Counted from the stretch's first letter, positions 29,428 to 54,826 are shown. The stretch: 55,302 nucleotides of DNA from Lewinellaceae bacterium (GCA_947459655.1 CANHEE010000004.1:1-55302), one strand, 5' to 3'. Notes: generated by a model from the sequence alone, not told the origin. Numbers and translations: made by a program.

Positions 29428-30822
29428 TTATTGCCTCACCAATTTGATTCGTTGCTGAAAATTACCATTGCTGACAGTGACAAAATAAATTCCCGCGGGA
29501 TGCTCATTTCCAAAAGCAAATGAAAACTGATCGGGATGCTGGTTCTTAAAAGCCATAATCTGTCTGCCCGAAAAATCGTGAACGATGATATCTGCAACTT
29601 CAGTGTACTTGCTGTGGAAAGTTACTACTCCGGAAGTCGGATTGGGCCAAACACTTGCCAATTGAGCAGGTGGAAGATCTTTGCTACTGACACCAAGGCC
29701 ATAAGCTTCTTTGGCATCTAGCACAAACAAACCATGCTGCATATCGACCAGCACGACGTTTTTACTAGGCAACTCAGTATAGGCACTCCAGTTTCCGGCA
29801 TATGCACCGCTGGTTGTGACACTGTCACTTTCCGGATGAGAGTCGAAGTATCCAGTTTTTACTACATTTTTTGGATCACTGACATCAAAAATCTGAATAC
29901 CGTCCTCATAGTAGGAAATAACTACCCTATTGTTGGGCGCAGGAAACGGATTGTGTGGCGTAGCTTTCGTACCCGAGGAGAAAAGTGAAAGTACTTTCAG
30001 ATCTTTCAAATCCGTCACATCCACCATTTTTACCGGCAGACTTGCAGGCACCTCATCCATCAAGATGAGGGTTTTTCCGTCCTCTGTGAGCAGACTGCTG
30101 TGGTTGTAACCTGATGAGGGATACTGGGTAAGTGAACCAAGCAGATCAAAAGTTGGCACGCTCTTGTTGAAGTAAAAAACTTTGAGTCCTTTGTATCCAA
30201 ACGAACCGTATACTGTATCGTTTTTCACAAACATGTCGTGTGCCTGACCGGTAGTCGGAAAATCATCTGCCAGATTGCGCAGCAGAACCGGCTTTTCCGG
30301 ATTGGCGAGACTGTAGGCTACAAGTGTATTGGTTCCACCGGCTATGTACATGATGTCTTTGTAAATCGAAATGGTGTGCCCGCGTGCAAACGGCTGGTCA
30401 CCATCATAGACCACATGGGTGCTGTCCGGAAGATACTTAAGATCAACGATTTGAAAACTGTTTGGCAAACCATCGTCACTAATGCAGTATAGGTAGTTTT
30501 TGTACGTTTTGTATTCACGCCAGACTGCATTTTTGTGCTTACCGGGAATAAACGACCTTTTTACAGGATTTCCTGGATTGCTGATATCCACTATATATGT
30601 ACCATTCTGCGCGCCCACTACCGCATATTCGCGCCCAGCCTGTGTATATCCCCAGCAGCTGCTGTATCGGTTGTTTACCCAGGTGCCATTCGGACCAATA
30701 GCAGAATCGTCCCAGGTGCCGAGTAATTTTACATGCTGGCTGTTGTAAACCGGTGCCTGGGCTTGCACGGAACGGGCAAAGGCAGACAAAATAGTCAGAA
30801 TCAGCAACAATCTCATTTTCAA
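29428..30822 (-). CDS. Choice-of-anchor B family secreted protein with type A T9SS tail
   Basis: A 464-residue exported protein (signal MKMRLLLILTILSAFARSVQAQ). The body consists of LVIVD-like beta-propeller repeats (GTYIVDISNPGNPVKRS, YSLANPEKPVLLRNL, IQIFDVSDPKNVVKTG), characteristic of choice-of-anchor B proteins. The last ~75 residues form a Por-type T9SS sorting domain (VWPNPTSGVVTFHS, DFSGRQI, PAGIYFVTVSNG, RIKLVRQ). It is thus exported through the outer membrane and probably cell-surface anchored or released. Its promoter is at 30845-30852. Confidence 0.9.
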   Translation of the reverse strand: MKMRLLLILTILSAFARSVQAQAPVYNSQHVKLLGTWDDSAIGPNGTWVNNRYSSCWGYTQAGREYAVVGAQNGTYIVDISNPGNPVKRSFIPGKHKNAVWREYKTYKNYLYCISDDGLPNSFQIVDLKYLPDSTHVVYDGDQPFARGHTISIYKDIMYIAGGTNTLVAYSLANPEKPVLLRNLADDFPTTGQAHDMFVKNDTVYGSFGYKGLKVFYFNKSVPTFDLLGSLTQYPSSGYNHSSLLTEDGKTLILMDEVPASLPVKMVDVTDLKDLKVLSLFSSGTKATPHNPFPAPNNRVVISYYEDGIQIFDVSDPKNVVKTGYFDSHPESDSVTTSGAYAGNWSAYTELPSKNVVLVDMQHGLFVLDAKEAYGLGVSSKDLPPAQLASVWPNPTSGVVTFHSKYTEVADIIVHDFSGRQIMAFKNQHPDQFSFAFGNEHPAGIYFVTVSNGNFQQRIKLVRQ

Positions 30823-34036: not shown

Positions 34037-37000
34037 ATGAGCTTGCTCAATTCTTGTAATCCAACCTTGTTCACGATGCTGCTTTGCATGGGCCTCTCCT
34101 TCACCACAAAAGCCCAGATCAGTATCGGTTCATCGTCATATACCACCCTGAAAGCTGCATTTGAAGACATTAACGCGGGTGTACAAACCGGAATCGTTAG
34201 CGTATCCGTTAATGGCAATACCACCGAAACGGCAAGTTGCACCCTGAATGCCAGTGGAACAGGATCTGCAAACTACACTTCTGTGACTGTTTTCGCAAAT
34301 GGCGGGCCGTGGACCATCTCCGGAAACCTAACTGCCGGGCATCTGATTGACCTCAATGGAGCCGACAATGTCAAAATTGATGGCGGCAACAATCTTACGC
34401 TGTCCAATTCGGGACTTGGAGCCTCCAGCGTTATCAGAATCTACAACGATGCCAGCGGAAATCAGATCAGAAACTGTGCGCTGCTGGGTTCGGCAAGTGC
34501 CTCCTTTGGTGTGGTTTCGTTCGGAAATGCTGTCGGTACAGGAAACGATTTCAACACCATTGACAACTGCAATATTTCTGCTGCGGGCAGCAATTTTCCG
34601 CTGAACGGCATCTACTCAATGAACACCACTGCAGGCACTGACAACGACAACAACACCATATCCAATTGCCGCATTTATGACTGCTACAACGCGAGCAACG
34701 CATTTTTTGGCATTCAACTGAATTCGGGCAACAGCACCTGGACCATCAGCGGAAATAAAATTTTCCAGACCGCATCCAGGTCTGTGACAACGGCCAATAC
34801 TTTGAGCGCGTTATTCGTCGGTGCAGGTTCCGGATATGTCATCAATAACAACACCATCGGTTTTGCAAATTCAACTGGCACAGGCACCTACACGATGACC
34901 TCTACTGTTGCGCTGCGTTTTGTTGGCATCAATTGCACACTTGGCGCCGGCACACCTACTGAAATCAATGGAAATACCATCAGTGCGATCAGCTTTACCA
35001 CCTCAAGTGGTGCAGCAACAACAAGCGGTGTTCTTTGCGGCATCAACATCACCGGTACCGGGGCTGCCAACATAGGCAATACGCAAGGAAATTTAATAGG
35101 ATCTTCCACAGGTGGTTCCAATCTTGTAGCCACTTCCACAACTACGCAGGCGTTGATTGTGGGCGTCCACTCTTCATCCACAGGAGCAATAAGTATTAAA
35201 AACAATACATTTGGTGGCTTCAGGTCAGGTGGAGCCACGGCAACTATCGCCGGGGCAATCATGGGTATCAATATTTCCGGTGCAGCCACATCTGTGAACA
35301 TAGAGAACAACATCATTGGCAATAGTACAGCAAACAATATGCAGGCGGGTTCGCTTACGTCGCCGACCACCAGTGGGTCGTCAATCTGTGCCGGGGTCAG
35401 TATCGCAAATGCAGCTGTAGGCACTGTTTCCATCCAGAATAACACCATTCAGAATTTTACATCTTACGGAACAGCCACGGCAGGCTATGTGAGAGGAATA
35501 CTAACGGTTGCCTCAACTGCAAATACGACCATCTATACCATCAGCAACAATACCATCAGTAGCCTTACTACCAACTCAACCTTCAACACATACTCTAATG
35601 GCCTAATGACGGCCAGCGGCATCGGACTTTCAACAGGATTGAACTCTGTCATTTCAGGAAACACCATTTCAAATATATCCTCGACCAATACCGGAACCGT
35701 ACCCTGCAATGCTGCCGGTATCGCCATCGGCAATGCCTCTGCGACACAGATATTCAGCAACCGGATTTTCAACATCAATAATGCCGGCACATCGACAATT
35801 GCGGCAACACCTGCCACTGCCTCAGGTATCATGATACGCTCTGCCACAGGAACTATAGCCATTTTCAACAATATGATATCGCTGGGAGCCGGACAGAACA
35901 CCAACACTTCATTTGTAGGCATCATGTGCAACAACGGATCATCTCCTAATCCCACTGCACAGCTGGTGTATTTCAATAGTATCAGTATTTCAGGGACGGT
36001 TAGTAGTGGCGCTCAGCCCAGTTTTGGAATAGCCAGAACAGACTACTCTACAACCGCCAAAACCTTACCAGTCTCCATCAGGAACAATTTGATTGTCAAT
36101 ACCCGAAATGGAGGAACGGGAGTTCACTGTGCCATTTGCAACAATTATGGGGCAACCGCAAGTGCAACAGGATGGGAATCAAATTACAATCTGCTTAATG
36201 CCACTAGCGCTACCGTAGGTTACTGGAGTACAGCGGTTAACCTGAGTGCCTGGAAATCGGCCGCAGCAAGCGATGCAAACAGCCCGTCGGGCATAACAGT
36301 CAATTTCGTCAACCTTTCAGCGGGTGATCTCCATCTCAATATGGGAATGACTCCAACAGGTATTGAATCCGGTGGAACCACCATTCCGGGATACACAGCA
36401 GACATAGATTCCGATGTGCGTCCCGGGCCTACAGGATCAATCAATGGTGGTGGTGTTGCTCCGGACCTGGGAGCAGATGAATTTGATGGTATGCCGGCAG
36501 ACCTAGCCGGACCTACCTTATCGGTTACAGCTGTAAGCAACAGCTGTTCAACCATGAACAGAATACTTACCGCCTATATCAAGGATGCATCAGGAATTCC
36601 TTTGGCAGGAAACCTTGTTCCAAGGGTTTATTTCCGAAAAGGCACTACTGGTAGCTGGTTTTCAACTGCCGGTGCACTGAACAATGGAACTTCCACTGAC
36701 AGCAACTGGGATTTTACCATTGACCAAGCTTTGATGGGTGGTGTAAGCGCCGGCGACTATATTTATTATTATGTAATTGCGCAGGACATCGCCGGCAATG
36801 TCAGTTCAGCGCCAGCAGGTGCTTCCGCTTTAGATGTCAATACAGTTAGCCTTGCGCCTGCAAGCCCGCTGGTCTACCAGATGGCTTATGCGGCACTCAA
36901 CGGAACATTTCAGGTGGGAAGCAGTCAGCCATCGCCGTTCCATACACTGACCAGTGCGATCAACACATTCAATAACGCCTGTACACTTAGTGGTCCTGTC

Positions 37001-39235
37001 GTTTTTGAACTCACAGATGCCACATATAGTACTGCCGAAACCTTTCCGCTGGTCATCAACAAGCACAGCAGCGCAAGCGCCGTCAATACTTTAACCATAC
37101 GTCCTGCCGCAGGCAACAATGCGAGTATTACCGGTACGCTTTCCAATTCACTTTTGATAGCCTGTTACAATAGTTTTACTACGATAGATGGTTCAAATAA
37201 CGGAACAACGAGTAAAAACCTGACACTTGGTGGTACAAGCACGACAGTTGCATTTTACTCATCAGGCAGTACAGCACCGGTAAGCAATTGCACCCTTAAA
37301 AACACTACTATTATGAATGGTGCGCAGACATCATCGGCGATAGTGGTCAACGATGCTACTCCGGGCAGTACCGGCGGATTTTTCAGCAACATTGGCATCA
37401 GAAACAATGACATACAAAGAGCTTTCAACGGCATCTACATCTATGCAAATCCGGCAGCGGCGGGTAATGGAGGTGGAACTGCTGTCGCGCAGAACAATAT
37501 GGTGTCCACCGGAACCAATTCAATCCGCCTGAATGGAGTGTACATGCAGGGCGTATCGGGTGCCGACATCAGCGGCAATACATTTGCGAATTTTGAAAGT
37601 GCCACGCTCGAAAACGATAACGCGATCAGGTTGTTTGGGGTAAACAGTACGTCAGTTTCAAACAATAACATTTCCGCCATGTCCTGTAGCAATACCAGCA
37701 CAGCAGCGCCGACAGGCATCGCATTGAACTCCAATTGCGCAGATATTACTGTTTCCGGAAATGTCATTTCCGGCATCACCACTGCGGGAACGAATACTGT
37801 GGCGGCCGTTGCCATTACATCAGGAACGGGATTTACTGTAAACGCAAATAAAATCAGCAACGTCAAAAATACCAATTCGGGTGGTTGGGGCGCCGCGGGT
37901 ATAAACATGTCCGGAACCAACTCCAGAATCACCAATAATTTTGTCTCCGATGTGGCTGCATATGGCTTTGCAAACTATGGTGTCGGAGACAATGGAAATG
38001 GTATAGTACTGAACGGCGGCATCAACCATGAACTCTACCACAACACGGTGCTGATGAATACCAATCAGACAGCTGTGACCGGCGTTCCCGCTGCATTGCT
38101 GATTACCACCGGAATGAATACCAGTGCATCAATTTATATTGTAAACAATATTCTCGCGAATACCCAGACAATCGGAAATCAGCGCTATGCCATTGTTTGT
38201 ACCGCTTCAACCAGCATCATCAGCGACATGAACAACAATGACTACTACAGCAGTGGACAAGGCCTGGCATATGTCAGCAACACAACCTGTACAACGCTGG
38301 CTGACATCACCACATATTTTGGTGGAAACAGTAATTCTTTCGTTGAATTACCCAACTTTGTTTCACCCACCGACCTGCACCTTAATACAGGCTCCACACC
38401 TACAAAACTTGAAAGCGGTGCTGTGGTTATTGCTGGACTGAACACTGACATTGACGGTAATAGCAGACCCGGACCGCAGGGAACCATCAATGGCGGCGGA
38501 TCTGCACCTGATGTAGGGGCCGATGAATTTGATGGTGTAAAAATTCCGGTTTTACTGAATGCCAAAGTTTTTCTGCAAGGCGTCGACTCCCTCACCGGAT
38601 TAATGAGCGACTACCTTAGAACCGTAAACTTCCCTACCTCTGACCCATACAGCAATCCTGCGAATCCTTACTTCACGACGCACGTGAACAACCTCACGGT
38701 TGCTACGGTTTCACCTGCCGTTCTAGCGCTCAGCGGAAACAACGCCGTGGTGGACTGGGTGTTTGTTGAATTAAGAACCGGCTCGACAGGAGCAACCACA
38801 GTTGTAGCAAGCAAGACGGCCCTGCTTCAGAGAGATGGAGATATCGTCGCTACTGATGGCGTTTCACCGCTGAGTATCAATGCTTCTCCGGGCAATTATG
38901 TAGTGGGCATCAGGCACCGCAACCACCTGCGTTTTGAAACTGACCAGCCTGTAGCACTGACCAACACGCCAGTCAGCCTGAATTTTACTGATAACTCGGT
39001 TGTCCTTTGGGGTAATTTCCCCAATGCTCTGAACAGCGCAGGTGGCGGAAAATGGATGATGATTGGCGGCGATGCCAATGCAGACTCATCAGTTGACGCC
39101 CTTGACACACCACCATGGGAAATCCAAAATGGTTTGTTTGATGATTACTTCATGAATGCAGACTATAATCTGGATGGCTCCACAGATGCCCTTGACTCAA
39201 TCGTCTGGGAATTGAATAATGGGAAATTCCTCTAA
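34037..39235 (+). CDS. Large secreted beta-helix protein with dockerin-like C-terminus
   Basis: A 1732-residue exported protein. A signal peptide (MSLLNSCNPTLFTMLLCMGLSFTTKAQ) is followed by two long Asn/Thr/Ser/Gly-rich sections of right-handed parallel beta-helix character (GNTISNISS-type repeats). Each section closes with a copy of a DLHLN...ADEFDG module (residues about 764-822 and 1446-1503). Between them lies a small beta domain (about 830-960). The last 226 residues (1507-1732) form a module shared with the next gene, ending in two calcium-loop motifs (1679-1690 DANADSSVDALD, 1709-1720 DYNLDGSTDALD). There is no type A or type B T9SS tail. Likely role: surface adhesin or polysaccharide-active protein, by inference only. 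Confidence 0.85.
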   Translation: MSLLNSCNPTLFTMLLCMGLSFTTKAQISIGSSSYTTLKAAFEDINAGVQTGIVSVSVNGNTTETASCTLNASGTGSANYTSVTVFANGGPWTISGNLTAGHLIDLNGADNVKIDGGNNLTLSNSGLGASSVIRIYNDASGNQIRNCALLGSASASFGVVSFGNAVGTGNDFNTIDNCNISAAGSNFPLNGIYSMNTTAGTDNDNNTISNCRIYDCYNASNAFFGIQLNSGNSTWTISGNKIFQTASRSVTTANTLSALFVGAGSGYVINNNTIGFANSTGTGTYTMTSTVALRFVGINCTLGAGTPTEINGNTISAISFTTSSGAATTSGVLCGINITGTGAANIGNTQGNLIGSSTGGSNLVATSTTTQALIVGVHSSSTGAISIKNNTFGGFRSGGATATIAGAIMGINISGAATSVNIENNIIGNSTANNMQAGSLTSPTTSGSSICAGVSIANAAVGTVSIQNNTIQNFTSYGTATAGYVRGILTVASTANTTIYTISNNTISSLTTNSTFNTYSNGLMTASGIGLSTGLNSVISGNTISNISSTNTGTVPCNAAGIAIGNASATQIFSNRIFNINNAGTSTIAATPATASGIMIRSATGTIAIFNNMISLGAGQNTNTSFVGIMCNNGSSPNPTAQLVYFNSISISGTVSSGAQPSFGIARTDYSTTAKTLPVSIRNNLIVNTRNGGTGVHCAICNNYGATASATGWESNYNLLNATSATVGYWSTAVNLSAWKSAAASDANSPSGITVNFVNLSAGDLHLNMGMTPTGIESGGTTIPGYTADIDSDVRPGPTGSINGGGVAPDLGADEFDGMPADLAGPTLSVTAVSNSCSTMNRILTAYIKDASGIPLAGNLVPRVYFRKGTTGSWFSTAGALNNGTSTDSNWDFTIDQALMGGVSAGDYIYYYVIAQDIAGNVSSAPAGASALDVNTVSLAPASPLVYQMAYAALNGTFQVGSSQPSPFHTLTSAINTFNNACTLSGPVVFELTDATYSTAETFPLVINKHSSASAVNTLTIRPAAGNNASITGTLSNSLLIACYNSFTTIDGSNNGTTSKNLTLGGTSTTVAFYSSGSTAPVSNCTLKNTTIMNGAQTSSAIVVNDATPGSTGGFFSNIGIRNNDIQRAFNGIYIYANPAAAGNGGGTAVAQNNMVSTGTNSIRLNGVYMQGVSGADISGNTFANFESATLENDNAIRLFGVNSTSVSNNNISAMSCSNTSTAAPTGIALNSNCADITVSGNVISGITTAGTNTVAAVAITSGTGFTVNANKISNVKNTNSGGWGAAGINMSGTNSRITNNFVSDVAAYGFANYGVGDNGNGIVLNGGINHELYHNTVLMNTNQTAVTGVPAALLITTGMNTSASIYIVNNILANTQTIGNQRYAIVCTASTSIISDMNNNDYYSSGQGLAYVSNTTCTTLADITTYFGGNSNSFVELPNFVSPTDLHLNTGSTPTKLESGAVVIAGLNTDIDGNSRPGPQGTINGGGSAPDVGADEFDGVKIPVLLNAKVFLQGVDSLTGLMSDYLRTVNFPTSDPYSNPANPYFTTHVNNLTVATVSPAVLALSGNNAVVDWVFVELRTGSTGATTVVASKTALLQRDGDIVATDGVSPLSINASPGNYVVGIRHRNHLRFETDQPVALTNTPVSLNFTDNSVVLWGNFPNALNSAGGGKWMMIGGDANADSSVDALDTPPWEIQNGLFDDYFMNADYNLDGSTDALDSIVWELNNGKFL
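38555..39235 (+). repeat. C-terminal module copy 1 (shared with the 1074-residue protein)
   Basis: Encodes residues 1507-1732. It aligns throughout with 42019-42708: AKVFLQGVD versus AKVYLDDVN, VDWVFVELR versus VDWVMIELR, ALLQRDGDI versus ALLQSDGDI, GIRHRNHL versus AVRHRNHL, then the two calcium loops and a WE-x-x-NG motif. Confidence 0.85.
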
Positions 39236-39274
39236 GTTGACATCTATAATCTTCTGGAAAAGATAAACCACACC

Positions 39275-39315
39275 AAAAAAAAACTGATTTTGTAAAAAAA
39301 ATCAGTTTTTTTTTT
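39275..39315 (+). terminator. Intrinsic terminator after the 1732-residue gene
   Basis: A run and ACTGATTTT (39283-39291) pair with AAAATCAGT (39298-39306), ending in ten T. It separates the two secreted-protein genes. Confidence 0.9.
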
Positions 39316-39341
39316 GAAAATGCATATTATTATTATCTTTG
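39313..39341 (+). promoter_or_regulatory. Upstream promoter of the 1074-residue gene
   Basis: TTTG (39313-39316), 17-base spacer, TATCTTTG (39334-39341). Its -33 element lies inside the T tail of the previous terminator. Confidence 0.55.
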
Positions 39342-39400
39342 TTTCTCATTATTCCCGAAATATTCCTTTAGACTGTAAATCAATAGAATTATATTTTAAA

Positions 39401-39408
39401 TATATTTG
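39401..39408 (+). promoter_or_regulatory. Second -7 box of the 1074-residue gene
   Basis: TATATTTG, exact -7 box, 75 bases before the ATG. Two tandem boxes suggest strong or dual expression. Confidence 0.5.
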
Positions 39409-39483
39409 CACTGACAAAACTATTTACGATAAAGTACCCATTCAATTCATTTAAATTTATTTTTAAACTTTAAAAAATTCAAC

Positions 39484-42400
39484 ATGATACGCATTTTTTC
39501 CAACGCTAACAAACGAATGAGTTTATTGCTCTTTCTGGGTATGTTGTGTACAGGAATTTCCCTGTTTGCCCAAAGAACAGCAAGTTTTACCAATGGCACC
39601 GTTGGTGGATCTACCAGCGGAGTATTAGGTACCAATTCCAGATATGCTGTAAATGAAAGCCTATACTTGGATTCCGAGATTGCAGCGGGCAACCAAAATT
39701 CCACGATTCAGGCAATCACTATTGAAGCCAACGTGGGTTTCAGTACGGTTGGAAACAACCACATTTTCAACAATGTAACTATCCGTATGAAAGAAGTACC
39801 TTCTACGGTCACGTCTCTGGCAGCTGCAGCTTACGACACAACAGGTTACACGAAAGTGTTTTCAGGAACGGTTGTCGCGCCAACTGCAACCAGAGGTCAA
39901 TTGAGAATCAATCTGAGTACCCAGTTTCCAAGGACTGCAGGCATGAATCTTATGCTGATGATTGAGCGCTTAGATAACGTCATTCACAACGGTGTTACCG
40001 GCCAAGTTGGAAACTGGATTGTATACAATAGTGCTATCACCACGAGTGCAATGTCAAGGAGATTGAATATAAATACTGCTCCCGTTAATGGTACCAGTGC
40101 GATATCAGCTTTGTTTGCAGGAAGGCCATTGAATAGCATGACCTATTCCTACTCAGATCCCAATCTGTCTGTAGAACATGTGTATACTTTGGGTAAATTG
40201 CCAATTCCTTATGGCACGCCGCACATCGTTCAGGCGAATGTTGCCAATAATTCAATTGGAACAGTATACAATGTAATGGCAAAAATAACCATCAGCGGAG
40301 CCAATAATGTACAGGATAGTATTGTCATTGATTCCATCCCTCCAGGAAAGAAAATCGTAAGCTTCCCTGCATTTAACCCAACAAACTATGGTTTAAATAC
40401 CATCAAAGTAGATGTAGTTCCTCAAGGAATTCAGCAACCATCCGGAATTACCACGTTCAGCATGGACCAAACGGTTACAAATAACGTGTATTCACTCGCA
40501 TACGGTTTCAATGGTAACCCGCCGGTTGCGGCAGGTGGTGTTGGTTTTACGGGTGCAACTGGAGACTTTATCGCAAAGTTTTATTCAGATAGCCCATCTA
40601 AAGTAAATCAGGTAGCTGTTACCTTCAACGGAAACCCAGGTCAGACCTTCAAAATGGGTATCTGGGGCGATTCAGGAAGTGGCACTCCGGGTGCACTACT
40701 TTGGGAATCACCTCAGCAGACATCAGTAGCCGGTGTATTTACCGTTCCGGTGAGTCCTAAAGTTCCGGTATTGGGTAACTTCTTCGTGGGTGTCCGTCAA
40801 TTGGGTACCACCAATATTGCGTTCTCTTACCAAGCGGAAAATCCGCCAAGAGCAGGAAGTTATTTCTATACATCTCCAACAGGAAACACCAACTGGGTAG
40901 ATTTTGCGACTTCTCAAAGCCCATTCCGATTCATGGTTGAGCCAAAGCTTGAGCTTGCAAATGACGTAGGAGTTTCTCAGGTGACTGTTCCGGGAACAGG
41001 TCTACAAATTGACAGATGCGGACTCGTTGCTCCAAAAGCAACTGTAACCAACTATGGTATCTTTGACCAGATTGATGTACCGGTACAAATGGTTATTACT
41101 GAAAATGGTGCGCCTGTTTATACAGAAACAGTAACCATTCCATCATTGACATCCGGCCAAATTCTAACCGTTACATTCCCTCAGACTTTCAATACAGGTG
41201 TTGCGGGAACAGGACTTTCAAACTACACTGCAACCTGTACCACCTACCTTACAGGTGACCAAGACAACCTGAATGATGGTAACGTGAGTAACTTCAGCTA
41301 TGGAGACTTCTCATACGGACAGGATAACTTAACAACGTATCAGTTCTCCAACTCTACAGCTTGTGCAGCAGCAGCACCATTCCAACCTACATACAACTGG
41401 ATTACGCAGACAGCCAACGAGGTAACATGGTCAAGCACCAACGCTGACGACCTATTTGCTGGGCCGTATACACTACCGTTCCCCTATAACTTCTACGGTG
41501 TCGACTATACTCAATACTGGGTGAGTTCAAACGGTTTTATTACTTTTACTGATCCGAGCCTTTGGACTGCTTTCAACAACGGAACTGCGCTTGCAATTCC
41601 TGCTGCAGGTGGACTTGAGAACTACATCGCAGGTGCAATGGATGACTTAGACTTCTCACCAGGTACTTATCCAGATGCACATGTATACTATGGTCCTAAT
41701 CCAAACAATCCTGATGAGTATGTCATTACTTTCTGGCATGCACACAAGTACTACACTACTCCACCTTCACCATCTGAATATGTTACTTTCCAGATCGTAT
41801 TGAAAAGAAGTGGAAGATTTCCTTTCACCATCAATTACAACAGCGTTGCATCCCTTAATCCTGCTTCAATCGTAAACACATGTACCATCGGATTTGAAAA
41901 TGAGACCGGTACTGCAGGTGTACAATACCGCAGACTGGGAAGCCGTGGTGAAATGTTTGATGTCAACAACGGAGACATGGCATTTTCAGCAAGATATCTT
42001 GTAGACAAATCCATCAGCTTGAGCGCAAAAGTGTATCTTGACGACGTAAACCCAACCACAGGTTTGATGACAGTTTACCTAAACAGTCTCTCAAACTTCC
42101 CAATTTCGGATCCATATGCAGTGGCTCCTTTCATCACTCGCTTCCCGCATGTAAACAGCGGTGCGCTGGCAGCAACCAATCCTTCTGTTTTGGCTGTTAC
42201 AGGTCCAGATGCTATCGTTGACTGGGTGATGATTGAATTGAGACAAGGCGTTGCAGGTGCTACTACCGTTACTGCTTCAAGAGCAGCACTTCTTCAAAGC
42301 GATGGCGACATCGTTGATGTTGATGGTATTTCTCCTGTAAGTTTCGTTGGTGTAAGTCCGGGCAACTATTACATAGCGGTTCGTCATCGCAACCACCTTG

Positions 42401-42708
42401 GTTTCCGTACCAACGATCCTATCGCTATGGGTACAGCACCAACTTCGTTAAACTTCACAGACAATTCTACATTGCTGAATGGTTCATTCCCAACTTATCA
42501 GAAAACTGCAACGGTATTTGCAATGGTAGGTGGTGATGCCAATTTCGACGGATCTGTGGATGCTGCAGATACTCCGACATGGGAATCTCAAAACGGTTTG
42601 TTCGATGATTATTCCAACAACGCAGACTACAACCTTGACGGTTCAGTGGATGCGGTTGATACGCCAATCTGGGAATCTCAGAATGGTAAATATGAAGAAT
42701 TGGATTAA
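39484..42708 (+). CDS. Large secreted protein with nidogen-like domain and dockerin-like C-terminus
   Basis: A 1074-residue exported protein (signal ending in GISLFAQ). It contains an N-terminal beta-rich section (about 30-320), a middle section with paired Ig-like domains (about 320-620), and a segment PFPYNFYGVDYTQYWVSSNG then AGAMDDLDF and YVITFWHAHKYY (about 660-780), which resembles nidogen-like beta-sandwich domains. The last 229 residues (846-1074) are the module shared with the preceding gene, ending in calcium loops DANFDGSVDAAD (1018) and DYNLDGSVDAVD (1048). Codon choice looks more biased (many GGT, GTA, AAC) than in its partner, consistent with high expression. Function not known. 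Confidence 0.85.
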   Translation: MIRIFSNANKRMSLLLFLGMLCTGISLFAQRTASFTNGTVGGSTSGVLGTNSRYAVNESLYLDSEIAAGNQNSTIQAITIEANVGFSTVGNNHIFNNVTIRMKEVPSTVTSLAAAAYDTTGYTKVFSGTVVAPTATRGQLRINLSTQFPRTAGMNLMLMIERLDNVIHNGVTGQVGNWIVYNSAITTSAMSRRLNINTAPVNGTSAISALFAGRPLNSMTYSYSDPNLSVEHVYTLGKLPIPYGTPHIVQANVANNSIGTVYNVMAKITISGANNVQDSIVIDSIPPGKKIVSFPAFNPTNYGLNTIKVDVVPQGIQQPSGITTFSMDQTVTNNVYSLAYGFNGNPPVAAGGVGFTGATGDFIAKFYSDSPSKVNQVAVTFNGNPGQTFKMGIWGDSGSGTPGALLWESPQQTSVAGVFTVPVSPKVPVLGNFFVGVRQLGTTNIAFSYQAENPPRAGSYFYTSPTGNTNWVDFATSQSPFRFMVEPKLELANDVGVSQVTVPGTGLQIDRCGLVAPKATVTNYGIFDQIDVPVQMVITENGAPVYTETVTIPSLTSGQILTVTFPQTFNTGVAGTGLSNYTATCTTYLTGDQDNLNDGNVSNFSYGDFSYGQDNLTTYQFSNSTACAAAAPFQPTYNWITQTANEVTWSSTNADDLFAGPYTLPFPYNFYGVDYTQYWVSSNGFITFTDPSLWTAFNNGTALAIPAAGGLENYIAGAMDDLDFSPGTYPDAHVYYGPNPNNPDEYVITFWHAHKYYTTPPSPSEYVTFQIVLKRSGRFPFTINYNSVASLNPASIVNTCTIGFENETGTAGVQYRRLGSRGEMFDVNNGDMAFSARYLVDKSISLSAKVYLDDVNPTTGLMTVYLNSLSNFPISDPYAVAPFITRFPHVNSGALAATNPSVLAVTGPDAIVDWVMIELRQGVAGATTVTASRAALLQSDGDIVDVDGISPVSFVGVSPGNYYIAVRHRNHLGFRTNDPIAMGTAPTSLNFTDNSTLLNGSFPTYQKTATVFAMVGGDANFDGSVDAADTPTWESQNGLFDDYSNNADYNLDGSVDAVDTPIWESQNGKYEELD
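42019..42708 (+). repeat. C-terminal module copy 2
   Basis: Encodes residues 846-1074 and matches the module at 38555-39235 in order and motif. DNA similarity is visibly lower than protein similarity, so this is not a recent duplication. Confidence 0.85.
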
Positions 42709-48384: not shown

Positions 48385-48539
48385 CAAAAAGCACAGCGGC
48401 CACCATTCCATTGAATCGTGACCGCTGTGTCGTTTTATTTTTGTCTCTGTGGGTACCTCTTTTTTATTTGTCTATCAGCAACACATCTCCCTTGTATACC
48501 TCCTTGTACCCGTCGATGAACTCAACCAGACAACCATAA
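48385..48539. repeat. Direct repeat copy 1 (3' end of giant gene plus terminator)
   Basis: Nearly identical to 55145-55302 over the full compared length. The only differences are one substitution in the hairpin loop (48409 versus 55169) and a three-base insertion between the terminator and the stop codon. Confidence 0.97.
48386..48429 (-). terminator. Terminator of the 2120-residue gene
   Basis: On the minus strand CACAGCGG (48429-48422) pairs with CCGCTGTG (48399-48392), followed by CTTTTTG. The stem extends to 12 bp with one mismatch. The plus strand is also T-rich beyond it, so it may serve the solute-binding gene as well. Confidence 0.85.
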
Positions 48540-51500
48540 GTGTATACACCCGGCACCGCCTTCTGGCCTCGGTAGAAACCATCCCAGCCCTTGTCCTGAT
48601 TGCTCACATCCTTCCGTGTGAAGTCCAGATCTTCAAACACCGCATTGCCCCAGCGGTCGTAGATCCTGAAGTAATGCACTTTCAGTACCTCCGGTCCAAG
48701 GAATACCTTCAACTTGCGGTTGCGGTCATCATCACTATCCGGATAGAAAATATTCGGTATGTAAACCCTCCTCGGCTTGTTCACCCGAAGCAGTACATTA
48801 TCACTCGCAGTACAGCCCCTCTTGTTCACTACCGTGACCGTGTACAGCGTGGTCTCCAACGGATACGCCTTGTAGCTCAGCGACTTCGTCTTTGGCGCAA
48901 ACAAACACGAGTCACAGGCCGGAGCCCACGTAACCTTCTTCAGCAGCGAATCTGCAAAGTTGATCTTCGCAACTATCGTATACGCCTGACCCAGTTCTAC
49001 ATCCACATCATCACCCGCAGACACACTAATCTCTGCAGGTTGCGTAACCGTCACCGTGCGACTGAAAGGACAACCCTTCGCATCCTTGATCCCTATCGTG
49101 TAAACACCAGCCTTCAGGTTCAAAAAGTTCCTGTACGGTGAGTACGGACCGTTGTTGATGCTATAGCGGAATGGTGGCGTTCCGCCAGTAACCTGACTGA
49201 TGTCTACCGTTCCATTGTCTTCTCCGAAACAACTCGGTTCCACTACCGCCTCCTTAAAGCCGGTTATCTCTACAATATTCCGCGTTACATCCACCGTATC
49301 TCTCGAGAAACACTTCGTCACGTTGTCACGAACCTCCAATCCGAATGTACCAGGCTTGCGCGTAACCGGATTCTTTATCTTTGTATTGCTCAACTGGTCA
49401 CCAACGACCGTTACCCACTGATATTCTATCGATGGACCCACTGATGAGTTGCCACCAAGCGTAACCTCTTCCGTATCACAGTTCAGATCCTGGTTCCTGC
49501 CGGCATCCGCTACCGGATTAGGGTCTACAATGACCCGGAAAGTCTGGCTCGCATCAGGACATGGTACTGCGCCCCTCACAAGATAGGTAAACGTATACGT
49601 GCCCGGGGCAGCATTCAGCGTGCGGAATGTCGCAGTGCCCGAATTGAAGCCCGCAACAGAAGGACTCACAGACCAGCTTCCTCCCGCATCCTCGTTGTTC
49701 AGCTCTCCCTCAAGATTTATCGTGACATCCGTGCCAAAGCAAAGGCGGCGATCAGGATTTGGCGTTCCCGCACTTACCGGATTGTTCACGCGAACTTCAA
49801 TGCTCTTGTTGGAAACCGCAGAACAGCCATTGCCATCCGTGACCTTGCCAAACAGATAGGTCGTCGTCACATCCGGCTTCACAGTATAGCTGAAGGTCGT
49901 CTGAGCAGCTGTCAAAGAAGGCTGGGCTGAACCGTTCGCAGTATACTGCACATCAAATGGTGACTTGCCCGTAAAGGTGAAATTCAGTGTCGCTGTCGAA
50001 CCCTTACAGATCGTCGTATTGTCCAGAACGCTCGTCGTAGGAAGTGCATGGAAAACGATTGGCTGACCAAGGGAAACATCAACACAGTTGTCGTTCAGAT
50101 CTACTTCACTCGCATTCGTGCTGCTCTTGTCTCCCACAACATATGATACATAGTACGTCACCTCAGCAACCATACCACCCGTGAAGGTAAATTCTCCCGT
50201 GGCATTGTGGGCAATCACCGTCCCCAATTTCCTGTTCGCGCCATTGCCGGTATGTAGGAAGAATTCTCCCGTGTCATCAGAATCAAGGAACAATCCCGTC
50301 GCTGCTGTTGGCTTATTTACCGTTATCTTGCCATCAACACAGGCCTCAGCAAGACTCTGAACCATCCGACCCGCATTGCTCAGACATGGACACTTCGGCT
50401 CAAACTCGCCGCATACCGGATTACAAACCAATGCATCCGTAAAGCACACCTTGATCTTCGATCCGGAGTTCACCGCATCGGTCGTAAACTGGTTGCCGTT
50501 GAAAGTTCCCGTCACGGTACTGCCCGGATCAAGTGCATAAGGTGCAGCACCGCTCAGCGTGAAGCGGAGCTGATAGGTCTTCGCATTAGAGGAGCATAGC
50601 GTATCTACTACGAAGGACAAATCGCCTTTCTTCTTAATCGTTACATCTACAGAGGCACTCGCAGTACAGCCATTGTTCTCCTCAGTCCATACGAATGTAT
50701 ATTTGCCGTACGACAACAACGTGACGCTAACCTGCGGAGCATCCGCATTCGGACTGAAGGTCGCACTGCCCGCAGAGCCTGTGCCTATCGTCCACTTACC
50801 CTTCTTGCCCGGTTCTGCCTTCAGTTGTGCTTTCAGCGCACAGCTGTCAACACTCACAATGCTCACCGTCGGGTTCGGGTTGCAGATAAACAGCACATCA
50901 CGGCATGAACTCTGAAGACACTTATCGCTAAGGTCTACCTGGCTCGGGTTACCGCTTTGTTTGTTACCGATAACCGCTATCAGTTTGTACGGCTTGTCGC
51001 ACTCCATCGTCTGTGGATTGAAACTGAACACACCGCTGTTGTTCCGTGCGATGATGTTCGAAGTAGTCAGATCGCAGCCGTCGGCAAACAGGAATTCTTC
51101 AATGTCATTGCCGTCACGGAAAGAGCCCGTGATTTTTGCAGTCAGATCAGTGCCGACACAAACATTCGCATTCGTTATGCTGAACTGACCAAGACTCGTC
51201 GTACAAGGACAAAAATGGCTTTGTTTAAACTCGATTGTATCGCACTTGTAGCTGTCTGTAATTTTTACTTTTACTTCAGTGCTGTTTGGTATTGTCTTAT
51301 ACGTATAGGTGTATGGCAAACTGCTCACTGTTCCAAGGACTGCTCCCGTAGTGTAGTCCAGCACATAATACGGAGCCTTCCCACCATTGATGGTAAAGGT
51401 CACATCGTAGTTGTCATTAGTGCTGTCGCAGTCGAATTTTACATTCGAGGTCGTCAGATCGCTCTTGATGAACGTAACCGTTACCTTGGAAGAATCCTTG

Positions 51501-54500
51501 CAAATACCATTTGATTCTACCCACCAGAACGTATATACCCCTGCGGTAGAAACACTCAATCTCGCAGTAGGACTTGTCGCGGTATCTATTGCAGAATAAT
51601 TGCCTTTCCAAATGCCTGTGTATGTTCCCTTCGGAAGAGCGGCAGCCATCGTTGCGCTCAATCCGCAAATCTGGAAATCAGGCCCCGCATTAGGCTTCGG
51701 CTTGCAATCCCACATCACCGGCTGGCCAACCGGCGTAACCTGAAGACATTTGTCCAAAGGATCAGGGAAACCGTTCTTCGCGTTGCCCATCACATACGAT
51801 ATGTAGTAGGTCTTTCCACATTGCATCTTCGCCGCATCAAAGCCAAAGGTACCCGTCTTGTTCCGAGCAACTTCTTTCTGGATCAGGCCGCCGTTGCCTT
51901 CGTGCAATACAAAGGCAAAAGTGTCATCACCATCGTTGAACTCCGTGCCGGCTTTGTGCTTCGCAGTAACCTGTCCGCCGAATTCACAAACAACAGGCAT
52001 CGCAGTCAAATCCATCTCGCCCGCAAGCGTCTCACAGTTACATACCGCAAGAACCGGAATCGTAATGTTGCAACCAGCGTCATTCGAGACTATCACTGAC
52101 CATGAAGTATCTGCTTTTGGAATATTGAGGATGGTCAGTACATTACCACTGAAAGAGGTATCAAGGTAGGGACTTGAAGCCACCCTGAATGGCGCATCGC
52201 AACCTTCCAGTTCTATCGTCACAAAATATTTCTTCGTCACTGCATTGCAGGTATAATTGAAGTTCTTAACAGTCGGAGGCTCACTGAACCGTATCTGTAC
52301 CGTGTCGCTGGCACTACAAATTCCATTGGACTCAGTCCAGATAAAATTGTACACTCCGCACTGCGTTACCGCTACAGCTGTGGAGTCGCGGTTCCGATTT
52401 GCAAAGGCTGCAACACCCGGGGCGCCCGCAGCAAGGCTCCAGCGGCCGGTGTTGCCGGACTGAGAAATGGTCGTCCTAAGTGTTGTGGTTCTTGAACAAA
52501 CCTTCCTGTCAGTACCCGCACTCGGCTTCGGAATAGGCTTTACCTCGATATTGATACACAGCGTATCTGAACCCTCTGGACGGCACTTATTCACCGACTT
52601 TACGCAAAGCTGATAAACACCCTCAGCAGTCCAGTTGATATTGATCGTTTTGGAGGTATCAGGGGGCGTAATCGTGCCGCCTCCGGAAAGATACCACTGG
52701 TAACCTGACGCAAAAGCCGCGTCGTTAACAGTATAGCTTGCCGTTTCATTCAGACACACAATGCGCTTGCCGGAAATCGTCTGAGGCTTCTCAGGAAGAC
52801 TGTTGATCACAAGATTTGCGGTGACACTGTCCTTGCCACAACGCTCAGTTACAATAAGCGTGACCGAACCCGAAGTCGCAACACTGCTCCACTTCACATA
52901 AATCTGTGAGGAGTCCGCGTTGAATGATGAAATTACCCCGTTGCTCACCTTCCATGAATAGTTTACAGAAGGACTATATGCATTCGGATTGCCAACCTCG
53001 TAGCTCACGCTATCGCCCTGACATACCGGAAGTACAGTTAGTACAGGCTTCACCGGAGGCGGAATCGGTGTAACCGTGATACACTCTTCGGGTGAGGTCT
53101 TGTTACAGGCGTTCTTCACAAGGCAAACCTGGTATGGACTGCCGTTGTTCTTCACAACCAATTTTGTCGGGTCGTTGTCCGGGCCAACGATGGTAGCACC
53201 ACCCTTAACGCTCCACTTGTAGCCCTGCGCGTTAAGATCAGGATTGATATAATAGCTCGTGGTATCACCGGCACATGGGTCGGCAACGGCAATCGGGGTC
53301 TCCGCTACTGCGGTACCGGGATTACCCAGTATCTGAACCTGTGCAGTCTTGAAACAGGTCTTTTTGAAAACGCCCTGTACTCCATTAATTTTTTGGGTAA
53401 TCTCATAGGTGTAACTCAGCGTGACCTCATACAAACCCGGCTGCGTTACAAGCAACTTCGCATTCGTCTCACCTGCAAGTTCGACACCATCTTTACTCCA
53501 TTTGTATTCTCGCGTACCAACGCCCGTGTAAGAGGTCAGATTTATACTGTTGGGAAGCGTAAGCGTTCCCGCTCCTCCGGCATTCAGCGTCAGCTGAGTA
53601 GTACTACAGTCTAACGTACCGCTTCCCGTTATCCGTGGGGTAATCTTGATACACTGCACCAAAACCTCAAAGGTCGTATCACAACGTATCGGCTTCGGAT
53701 TGCCATCCTGTACAAATTTCTTCGGGGAGTTGCCCGCATCGGCACAGGAAAACTGTATTCCCTTAACTGTCTGTTTCTCGCCATCGCAAAGGATAACAGG
53801 GGGCAACTGTACAGGCTTGTTGTCAAATACGTTGATATCAAGGGTCACATCGCCCTGGCATCCTGCTCCGTCGATGGAATAGGTAATCTTCTGTGAGCGC
53901 TTGGTGCCGGGTGGAAAATTAATCACATAGGTCTCGGGCTTGATCGTTCCGGAAAAAGTCGGATTGGTCGTCTTGATACAATTGATCAACTCGTATACAA
54001 CAGGACGCTCTTCAGGACAAATTTCCACCTTGCAGGTCGCCGGTTTCAACTCCAAAACCTCAACCTCTACACAGACCTTGTTGACCTTCGGAAGGCATTT
54101 GCCCTTGAAAACAGGTTCAGCACAGACCTTTACCTTGCCATTCGCAGGGGGATTTGTGATCTTGATGTTTACATCATCAGGGGATCCGGCAACCTTCGTC
54201 GCAGTTCCTGCACTTGCAGGTTCAATAGTCCACTTCCAGTCATCAGGACGACAGCCCGGAAGAGAAGGAAGGGAGGCGTTGAATTTCGCACTCGCACCCT
54301 TGCATATCTGCATCGGCCCTGTCAACTTCGCAGGAGGAACCTCCTTCAATATCTGATTTTTATCGTAGGTACAGATTACGTTGCACTGGCATTCTGCCAG
54401 TCCATCAATCTGAAGGTAGTACACCTTACACGGACTAACTGAGGTGGTAAGAATACCGGAAGTACCCACAACGCAGTCAATAGCTGTCACACTACCACAG

Positions 54501-54826
54501 TTGTCACCTTCCCAGATGGTCATCTGAACACCGATAGAACCTCCTGCACCAGGAACACAGTTGGATGTGGTAATAGAAAAGGTCAGTTTATTACCTGAGG
54601 GACGGATAATCCACCATGCAGGATTGTCTTCTGTTGTTCCGGAACCACATGGCAGATTCAGATTAGGAGAAACGCCATTCTGATTCGGCTGACGACCTGT
54701 AATGGATGATTTGTTGACGTCAATGCAGGTAGCCGTACAGGGCGTACCTTCAACAATCTGGCCAGAAGATTCAGCCATAAAAATACACAGCAACAGCAAC
54801 GACAATACGTTTCTTATAAATTTCAT
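48464..54826 (-). CDS. Giant surface protein with Ig/PKD-like repeats, SprB repeat and type B T9SS tail
   Basis: A 2120-residue exported protein (signal MKFIRNVLSLLLLCIFMAESSGQ). The N-terminal ~160 residues are a Cys-rich beta domain (GGSIGVQMTIWEGDNCG). Many PKD/Ig-like domains follow (about 165-760). Three tandem supermodules of about 278 residues occupy ~760-1590; each begins with an Ig-like unit ending WTESNGIC or similar and closes with a Cys-containing unit ending in a DLxDxCLxV/GQP pattern. More Ig-like domains come next, then an SprB-like repeat (CFGEDNGTVDISQVTGGTPPF, about 1860) and, at the C-terminus, the gliding-motility-associated type B domain (YIPNIFYPDSD, YFRIYDRWGNAVFE, VPGVYTYGCLVEF, KGDVLLIDK). 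It is probably a T9SS-secreted adhesin or motility-related surface protein. Confidence 0.92.
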   Translation of the reverse strand: MKFIRNVLSLLLLCIFMAESSGQIVEGTPCTATCIDVNKSSITGRQPNQNGVSPNLNLPCGSGTTEDNPAWWIIRPSGNKLTFSITTSNCVPGAGGSIGVQMTIWEGDNCGSVTAIDCVVGTSGILTTSVSPCKVYYLQIDGLAECQCNVICTYDKNQILKEVPPAKLTGPMQICKGASAKFNASLPSLPGCRPDDWKWTIEPASAGTATKVAGSPDDVNIKITNPPANGKVKVCAEPVFKGKCLPKVNKVCVEVEVLELKPATCKVEICPEERPVVYELINCIKTTNPTFSGTIKPETYVINFPPGTKRSQKITYSIDGAGCQGDVTLDINVFDNKPVQLPPVILCDGEKQTVKGIQFSCADAGNSPKKFVQDGNPKPIRCDTTFEVLVQCIKITPRITGSGTLDCSTTQLTLNAGGAGTLTLPNSINLTSYTGVGTREYKWSKDGVELAGETNAKLLVTQPGLYEVTLSYTYEITQKINGVQGVFKKTCFKTAQVQILGNPGTAVAETPIAVADPCAGDTTSYYINPDLNAQGYKWSVKGGATIVGPDNDPTKLVVKNNGSPYQVCLVKNACNKTSPEECITVTPIPPPVKPVLTVLPVCQGDSVSYEVGNPNAYSPSVNYSWKVSNGVISSFNADSSQIYVKWSSVATSGSVTLIVTERCGKDSVTANLVINSLPEKPQTISGKRIVCLNETASYTVNDAAFASGYQWYLSGGGTITPPDTSKTININWTAEGVYQLCVKSVNKCRPEGSDTLCINIEVKPIPKPSAGTDRKVCSRTTTLRTTISQSGNTGRWSLAAGAPGVAAFANRNRDSTAVAVTQCGVYNFIWTESNGICSASDTVQIRFSEPPTVKNFNYTCNAVTKKYFVTIELEGCDAPFRVASSPYLDTSFSGNVLTILNIPKADTSWSVIVSNDAGCNITIPVLAVCNCETLAGEMDLTAMPVVCEFGGQVTAKHKAGTEFNDGDDTFAFVLHEGNGGLIQKEVARNKTGTFGFDAAKMQCGKTYYISYVMGNAKNGFPDPLDKCLQVTPVGQPVMWDCKPKPNAGPDFQICGLSATMAAALPKGTYTGIWKGNYSAIDTATSPTARLSVSTAGVYTFWWVESNGICKDSSKVTVTFIKSDLTTSNVKFDCDSTNDNYDVTFTINGGKAPYYVLDYTTGAVLGTVSSLPYTYTYKTIPNSTEVKVKITDSYKCDTIEFKQSHFCPCTTSLGQFSITNANVCVGTDLTAKITGSFRDGNDIEEFLFADGCDLTTSNIIARNNSGVFSFNPQTMECDKPYKLIAVIGNKQSGNPSQVDLSDKCLQSSCRDVLFICNPNPTVSIVSVDSCALKAQLKAEPGKKGKWTIGTGSAGSATFSPNADAPQVSVTLLSYGKYTFVWTEENNGCTASASVDVTIKKKGDLSFVVDTLCSSNAKTYQLRFTLSGAAPYALDPGSTVTGTFNGNQFTTDAVNSGSKIKVCFTDALVCNPVCGEFEPKCPCLSNAGRMVQSLAEACVDGKITVNKPTAATGLFLDSDDTGEFFLHTGNGANRKLGTVIAHNATGEFTFTGGMVAEVTYYVSYVVGDKSSTNASEVDLNDNCVDVSLGQPIVFHALPTTSVLDNTTICKGSTATLNFTFTGKSPFDVQYTANGSAQPSLTAAQTTFSYTVKPDVTTTYLFGKVTDGNGCSAVSNKSIEVRVNNPVSAGTPNPDRRLCFGTDVTINLEGELNNEDAGGSWSVSPSVAGFNSGTATFRTLNAAPGTYTFTYLVRGAVPCPDASQTFRVIVDPNPVADAGRNQDLNCDTEEVTLGGNSSVGPSIEYQWVTVVGDQLSNTKIKNPVTRKPGTFGLEVRDNVTKCFSRDTVDVTRNIVEITGFKEAVVEPSCFGEDNGTVDISQVTGGTPPFRYSINNGPYSPYRNFLNLKAGVYTIGIKDAKGCPFSRTVTVTQPAEISVSAGDDVDVELGQAYTIVAKINFADSLLKKVTWAPACDSCLFAPKTKSLSYKAYPLETTLYTVTVVNKRGCTASDNVLLRVNKPRRVYIPNIFYPDSDDDRNRKLKVFLGPEVLKVHYFRIYDRWGNAVFEDLDFTRKDVSNQDKGWDGFYRGQKAVPGVYTYGCLVEFIDGYKEVYKGDVLLIDK
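50056..52546 (-). repeat. Three tandem ~278-residue supermodules inside the giant gene
   Basis: Ig-like units beginning KPSAGTD, KPNAGPD and NPTVSIV start near residues 760, 1040 and 1315. Cys-units beginning CETLAGEMD, CTTSLGQF and CLSNAGRM start near 927, 1206 and 1478. The regular spacing marks three tandem copies. Boundaries are approximate. Confidence 0.75.

Follow-up and report, generated by a model that had tools for sequence, protein, structure and literature searches.

What is the role of a C-terminal module shared by two adjacent giant exported proteins that carry neither the type A nor the type B tail of the type IX secretion system (T9SS)? This question is raised by a locus of a Lewinellaceae bacterium (GCA_947459655.1 CANHEE010000004.1:1-55302), a stretch of 55,302 nucleotides, referred to below as the window, which is part of a 3.0 Mb, 99.8% complete genome (G000). 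The best-supported answer is an assembly of the cohesin-dockerin kind, comprising an X-dockerin-like plug and a family of T9SS-exported sockets. We consider it rather probable that the module is the plug and that a domain termed R would bind it as the socket on T9SS anchors, in a cellulosome-like fashion. The features of the locus are as follows.

34037..39235, plus strand: exported giant 1, 1732 amino acids (aa), with a signal-peptide-like N-terminus, a Gly/Asn-rich repeat body and the C-terminal module
38555..39232, plus strand: module copy 1, 226 aa, an X-like beta domain plus a dockerin-like loop pair
39071..39106, plus strand: calcium loop 1 of module copy 1, DANADSSVDALD, from the loop-pattern scan
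39161..39196, plus strand: calcium loop 2 of module copy 1, DYNLDGSTDALD, from the loop-pattern scan
39484..42708, plus strand: exported giant 2, 1074 aa, with a signal-peptide-like N-terminus, a body giving no strong family match and the C-terminal module
42019..42705, plus strand: module copy 2, 229 aa, used for the AlphaFold2 model
42535..42570, plus strand: calcium loop 1 of module copy 2, DANFDGSVDAAD, from the loop-pattern scan
42625..42660, plus strand: calcium loop 2 of module copy 2, DYNLDGSVDAVD, from the loop-pattern scan
29428..30822, minus strand: comparison gene, a choice-of-anchor B protein with a type A T9SS tail (TIGR04183, 44 bits)

A C-terminal module with a predicted X-dockerin-like fold

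An earlier sequence-only reading of the window had described two adjacent exported giants ending in one common module, and the open reading frames (ORFs) bear this out: both have signal-peptide-like N-termini, and the modules (last 226 and 229 residues) align end to end with 57% identity (E=9e-88). Each module contains two 12-residue loops of the form D-x-[ND]-x-D-x(3)-D-x(2)-D, spaced by exactly 30 residues and each followed three residues later by WE. The loop pairs pointed out in that reading are indeed distinctive, with 0 of 2000 shuffled versions of either giant reproducing such a pair. Neither giant matches the models for type A (TIGR04183) or type B (TIGR04131) tails, again as had been stated; a Pfam search with the body of giant 1 recovered no family, and the module was assigned to none in Pfam or NCBIfam. 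These observations support the module as a third class of C-terminal module, which is neither type A nor type B. The claim that both known tails occur elsewhere in the window stands for type A and is weakly supported for type B: the candidate (48464-54826, minus strand), which is 2120 aa long and contains PKD-like domains and a SprB repeat, has a weak tail of this type that scores 24.1 bits against CHU_C, below the cut-off of 27.

AlphaFold2, provided with an alignment of the window modules and 34 named relatives, returned a model of the module with a predicted local distance difference test score (pLDDT) of 89.9 and a predicted template modelling score (pTM) of 0.89. When this model was compared with the PDB using Foldseek, the best four matches were all X-dockerin chains from type II cellulosomal X-module-dockerin complexes (4u3s_B, E=3.8e-4; 4wi0_B; 5g5d_B; 2b59_B; probabilities 0.99-1.00), the TM-scores obtained with this predicted query being modest (0.33-0.40 by query). 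A helix is present at residues 212-220 of the model, and residues 190-195 after loop 1 are poorly modelled. The structure prediction places the module nearest to the cellulosomal X-module-dockerin dyads, as the label dockerin-like had anticipated, and points to the three-dimensional fold of such a dyad. Duplicated repeats of a 12-residue calcium loop plus helix, as in dockerins, are found in both window proteins. At the sequence level the Pfam Dockerin_1 model (PF00404) scores 13.9 bits on window protein P0004, below its cut-off of 22.9, and 17.2 bits on the relative L043, with no match on window protein P0003; a sequence comparison of the module with a PDB dockerin gives E=0.076. The likeness to dockerins would accordingly be one of predicted fold and not of sequence family, with the sequence alone giving a hint of it.

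Position, distribution and loop code of the module

The module has 21 credible matches in G000 (42-100% identity), and 19 of the 21 ORFs containing them end at the module end or within one residue of it; one of the remaining two is truncated within the module where its contig stops, and the other, a divergent copy, ends 32 aa later. The earlier reading had proposed to test whether the module is always C-terminal; this holds for essentially every copy in G000, and in the relatives too it is C-terminal. A C-terminal signature resembling WExNNGKYEELD is common to the G000 paralogues, and the aspartates of the calcium loops are invariant in 17 of them. Their bodies are diverse, including alpha-amylase, esterase-like, YHYH plus GEVED, M36 fungalysin, choice-of-anchor B (LVIVD), fn3 and other types. 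A restriction to exported proteins had also been proposed as a check, and the carriers are indeed of the signal-peptide type; a crude signal-peptide rule was positive for 28/33 module ORFs versus 56/96 neighbours, an enrichment that by itself is weak evidence. Contigs C98 (end), C115 (start) and C110 (start) of G000 stop within or near modules, C98 and C115 having common sequence at the break, and the repeated module probably breaks the assembly.

On two kinds of cargo the module alternates with type A tails. Among the choice-of-anchor B paralogues of G000, the window protein has a type A tail and its counterpart on contig C75 has the module instead (32% identity over 380 aa). The M36 protease carries the module in G000 and a type A tail in 7/7 homologues with a readable C-terminal end from other genomes (44-53% identity). 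As these two cores alternate between module and type A tail, the module occupies the T9SS tail position. In the choice-of-anchor B family (TIGR04312), which is defined by the core and not by the anchor, a single core is combined with different C-terminal anchors, among them type A and, in G000, the module.

In a sample of 247 Bacteroidota genomes, where about 11 candidates per genome were scored so that module counts are lower bounds, the module is present in at least 34. G005 and G003, which belong to the same family as G000, have 138 and 63 module matches respectively. The named relatives are mostly from metagenome-assembled genomes of Chitinophagales, Saprospiraceae, Chitinophagaceae, Flavobacteriaceae, Sphingobacteriales, Bacteroidales, Calditrichaceae and Ignavibacteria. 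The proposed check for a link to T9SS gave genomic co-occurrence: sprA, which encodes the T9SS translocon, is found in 34/34 module genomes, with the module in 34/190 SprA-positive versus 0/57 SprA-negative genomes (Fisher 1e-4), the SprA-negative genomes being phylogenetically clustered, and the PorU sortase was found in 9/9 genomes tested. Several variants and related forms were also seen. Ignavibacteria-type copies (L097-L101) have a short basic, Lys/Asn-rich tail of 50-60 residues after the loop pair. L042, L045, L052, L072-L077 and L080-L093 combine the same N-terminal part with a different expanded C-terminal repeat pair (VRxTGPxxND... type). L104 and L106 have planctomycetal dockerin-like pairs followed by PEP-CTERM-like tails, and the X-like N-terminal part is absent. 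Two loci of G003 (C24:28898-33388 and C77:3768-8246) have matches to a PorU-like C25 peptidase and to the module in the same place in open frames of the same length, which suggests peptidases with a C-terminal module.

The repeats further show residues that are common to most paralogues of a genome, namely DGSVDAIDSIxWExNNG in G000, NAADRSxxWNxRN in most G005 copies, NGxDKAxW in G003, QNIDIN in G108 and QASDKNAYF in G238. Agreement between repeats 1 and 2 at loop positions 10, 11, 13 and 14 is 0.55 for repeats of one protein, 0.42 for repeats from one genome and 0.11 for repeats from different genomes. Identity of the C-terminal part is 0.52-0.75 within and 0.23-0.44 between genomes, and the N-terminal part is less genome-specific (0.38-0.58 versus 0.27-0.37). 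By analogy, these genome-specific loop residues resemble the species-specific recognition known for cohesins and dockerins (PMC12484212).

The R domain, a candidate receptor, and the cohesins

In distant genomes a co-directional ORF of 260-520 aa lies directly downstream of 49/63 genes coding for module-bearing (tagged) proteins. The downstream proteins consist of a signal peptide, an N-terminal domain of about 150 residues, which we label R, and in most cases a type A tail, many with an fn3-like linker as well; among the named loci, a type A-like tail is encoded by the next gene after 15/31 tagged versus 3/96 control genes (p=1e-8). Type B substrates are also encoded next to a dedicated partner, in that case a PorP/SprF shuttle protein (PMC12618676), and the order of exported cargo gene followed by partner gene is common to both arrangements. 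The downstream gene was considered as a PorP/SprF-like shuttle and rejected: unlike these shuttles, its product combines a signal peptide with the R domain and, in most cases, a type A tail.

A profile search recovered 17 R domains in G000, 11 in G005, 16 in G003 and 6 in G209, and no match in 15 genomes of the same set in which the module was not found. Across the 247-genome sample R occurs in 9/34 module genomes versus 0/213 others (p=6e-9, a statistic that ignores phylogeny), and in 6/31 versus 0/213 (p=3e-6) after removal of the three genomes that gave the profile rows. In G034, G144, G238 and G262, which contributed no rows, the R match lies in an ORF adjoining the module. The domain architectures are reminiscent of a scaffold system: G000 encodes a protein of at least 4410 aa with four R domains and a type A tail (contig C45), another of at least 3548 aa with a signal peptide and four R domains, truncated at an end of contig C57, and type A proteins with a single R domain of 401 aa (C19, 35 nucleotides from a tagged gene) and 263 aa (C41). 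R is fused to the module on G000 contigs C108 and C166 and in a 548-aa protein of G005, and an 851-aa protein of G209 has three R domains. The T9SS tails of R proteins score above curated cut-offs (type A 35.7-46.3 bits, cut-off 23; type B in G209 49 bits, cut-off 35). A mirror test between the module and the N-terminal domain of the partner gave r=0.44, with a partial r of 0.25 given the partner tail (0/2000 permutations); the partner tails correlate too (0.60), and the test lends weak support to the link.

Could R be a cohesin? Profile comparison, PDB sequence search and structure prediction were tried and did not establish this. The Foldseek matches of the R model are generic beta-sandwiches, with one cohesin, 2vo8, at rank 46. 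The Pfam cohesin model PF00963 gives E=0.016 on the R protein of G209 and E=0.27 on L078, and no match on the R proteins of G000. R is possibly a divergent cohesin-type domain.

The sequence-only reading had seen no cohesin-like gene here, which is correct for the window ORFs scanned and incorrect for G000, where PF00963-type domains are numerous and sit on T9SS type A and type B proteins, with as many as three in a row; the impression of a missing partner arose because only the window was looked at. Giants on contigs C16 (L196:6151-9231) and C86 (L199:7982-11950) have an internal CarboxypepD_reg, Dockerin_1 and cohesin (PF00963) series followed by a type A tail, and by their domain matches form another dockerin/cohesin set of G000, one that Pfam recognises. 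On contigs C24 and C23 of G000 there are giants in which a cohesin precedes a type A-like tail, and proteins on C8 (L194, L195) and C134 (L197) have up to three N-terminal cohesin-type domains and type B tails in a scaffoldin-like arrangement.

A possible plug-and-socket system and its rivals

Based on these observations we propose that the module is a C-terminal docking dyad, in which a beta domain resembling an X-module precedes two dockerin-like calcium-loop/helix repeats. It would mark exported cargo devoid of a T9SS tail of its own, such as adhesin-like giants, proteases, amylase and esterase, and would plug into R domains, which appear to form a new beta-rich family. Proteins with R domains and T9SS tails would reach the surface and anchor there, those with multiple R domains serving as scaffolds, those combining R and module as adaptors and those with the module only as cargo, as in the cellulosome. 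We infer that module and R bind physically, that calcium is needed, that the complex lies at the surface and that the cargo crosses the outer membrane, for which it may use its own signal or be carried with the R partner. A more specific version, in which module-only cargo is exported in trans by riding a T9SS-tailed R partner and genome-specific plug codes keep the system private to the species, is one that we put forward as speculation. The type II X-module-dockerin dyads of CipA/ScaA (2b59, 5g5d, 4u3s, 4wi0) resemble the module in the predicted two-part fold and C-terminal place, as well as in the duplicated calcium-loop/helix repeats, species-level loop code and scaffold/adaptor/cargo architecture (PMC12484212). 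They differ in that the module scores below the Pfam dockerin cut-off, occurs in T9SS-bearing Bacteroidota on non-cellulosomal cargo, and has a candidate receptor that is not recognisably a cohesin.

Several points weigh against this proposal. The R and cohesin profiles showed no relation in hhalign (probability 0.5), nor did the R profile and PDB chains by sequence, and the AlphaFold2 model of R is poor (pLDDT 53). Most tagged genes of G000, both window ones included, have no adjacent partner, which would require a shared receptor. Several module genomes yielded no R match; in many of these the repeats are of another type and the partner domains differ, and modules of the VRxTGPxxND... type are indeed accompanied by other partner N-terminal domains that the R profile misses. 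The counts of co-occurrence between R and module take no account of phylogeny, and lineage-specific gene expansion could partly produce the genome-specific loop codes.

The module could instead itself be a T9SS C-terminal signal of a new class, which the translocon or a dedicated shuttle would recognise, with the R protein only an associated surface protein. Its extreme C-terminal position, conserved last residues, replacement of type A tails on homologous cargo and confinement, within the sample, to SprA-positive genomes would all be expected of such a signal, although the SprA-negative genomes of the sample are mostly from one family. Like the type A, type B and type C (ChiA) signals, the module is C-terminal on signal-peptide proteins of T9SS genomes, and with type A it is interchangeable on homologous cargo. 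However, it matches neither the type A nor the type B model, has a two-domain calcium-loop architecture, and, unlike a type B signal with its PorP/SprF shuttle (PMC12618676), adjoins a gene whose product is itself T9SS-tailed. Moreover, the fold matches X-dockerins with no T9SS C-terminal domain among the 50 PDB matches listed, the repeat codes vary between genomes although T9SS is conserved, and R domains follow the occurrence of the module, with which they share a polypeptide in the adaptor-like proteins. We regard this explanation as rather unlikely. Of the earlier idea of a separate sorting, anchoring or assembly tag, what survives is a third C-terminal class at the type A position; the comparative data fit docking or assembly better than a T9SS sorting signal as such.

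That the receptor is the ordinary cohesin family PF00963 and not R appears improbable. Apart from their abundance and tandem occurrence on T9SS-tailed proteins of G000, cohesins are enriched in module genomes (23/34 versus 62/213; 23/34 versus 60/156 among SprA-positive genomes) and are fused to the module in G034 and G098. As a universal receptor they nevertheless fail: a custom profile detected none in G005, with its 138 module copies, nor in nine other module genomes. They are also common in genomes without the module, and the type A cohesin giants of G000 carry an internal Pfam dockerin of their own. Least credible, and in our estimate very improbable, is that the module is a mere calcium-stabilised structural or adhesive cap spread by recombination with no dedicated receptor; the many unrelated cargo types and the contigs breaking inside the module, in the manner of a dispersed repeat, would suit such a cap, whereas the strictly C-terminal position, the genome-specific codes of the two repeats and the conserved partner next door would not.

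Our literature search found no description of such a plug-and-socket system among the papers listed, and Bacteroidetes have been described as being without cellulosomal cohesins and dockerins (PMC5831590). If the proposal is right, T9SS anchors carry a plug-and-socket assembly akin to the cellulosome in part of the phylum, with as many as 138 tagged proteins encoded in a single genome. It would also furnish a localisation hypothesis for many exported proteins in which no T9SS signal is recognised, and orthogonal docking pairs could be drawn from it.

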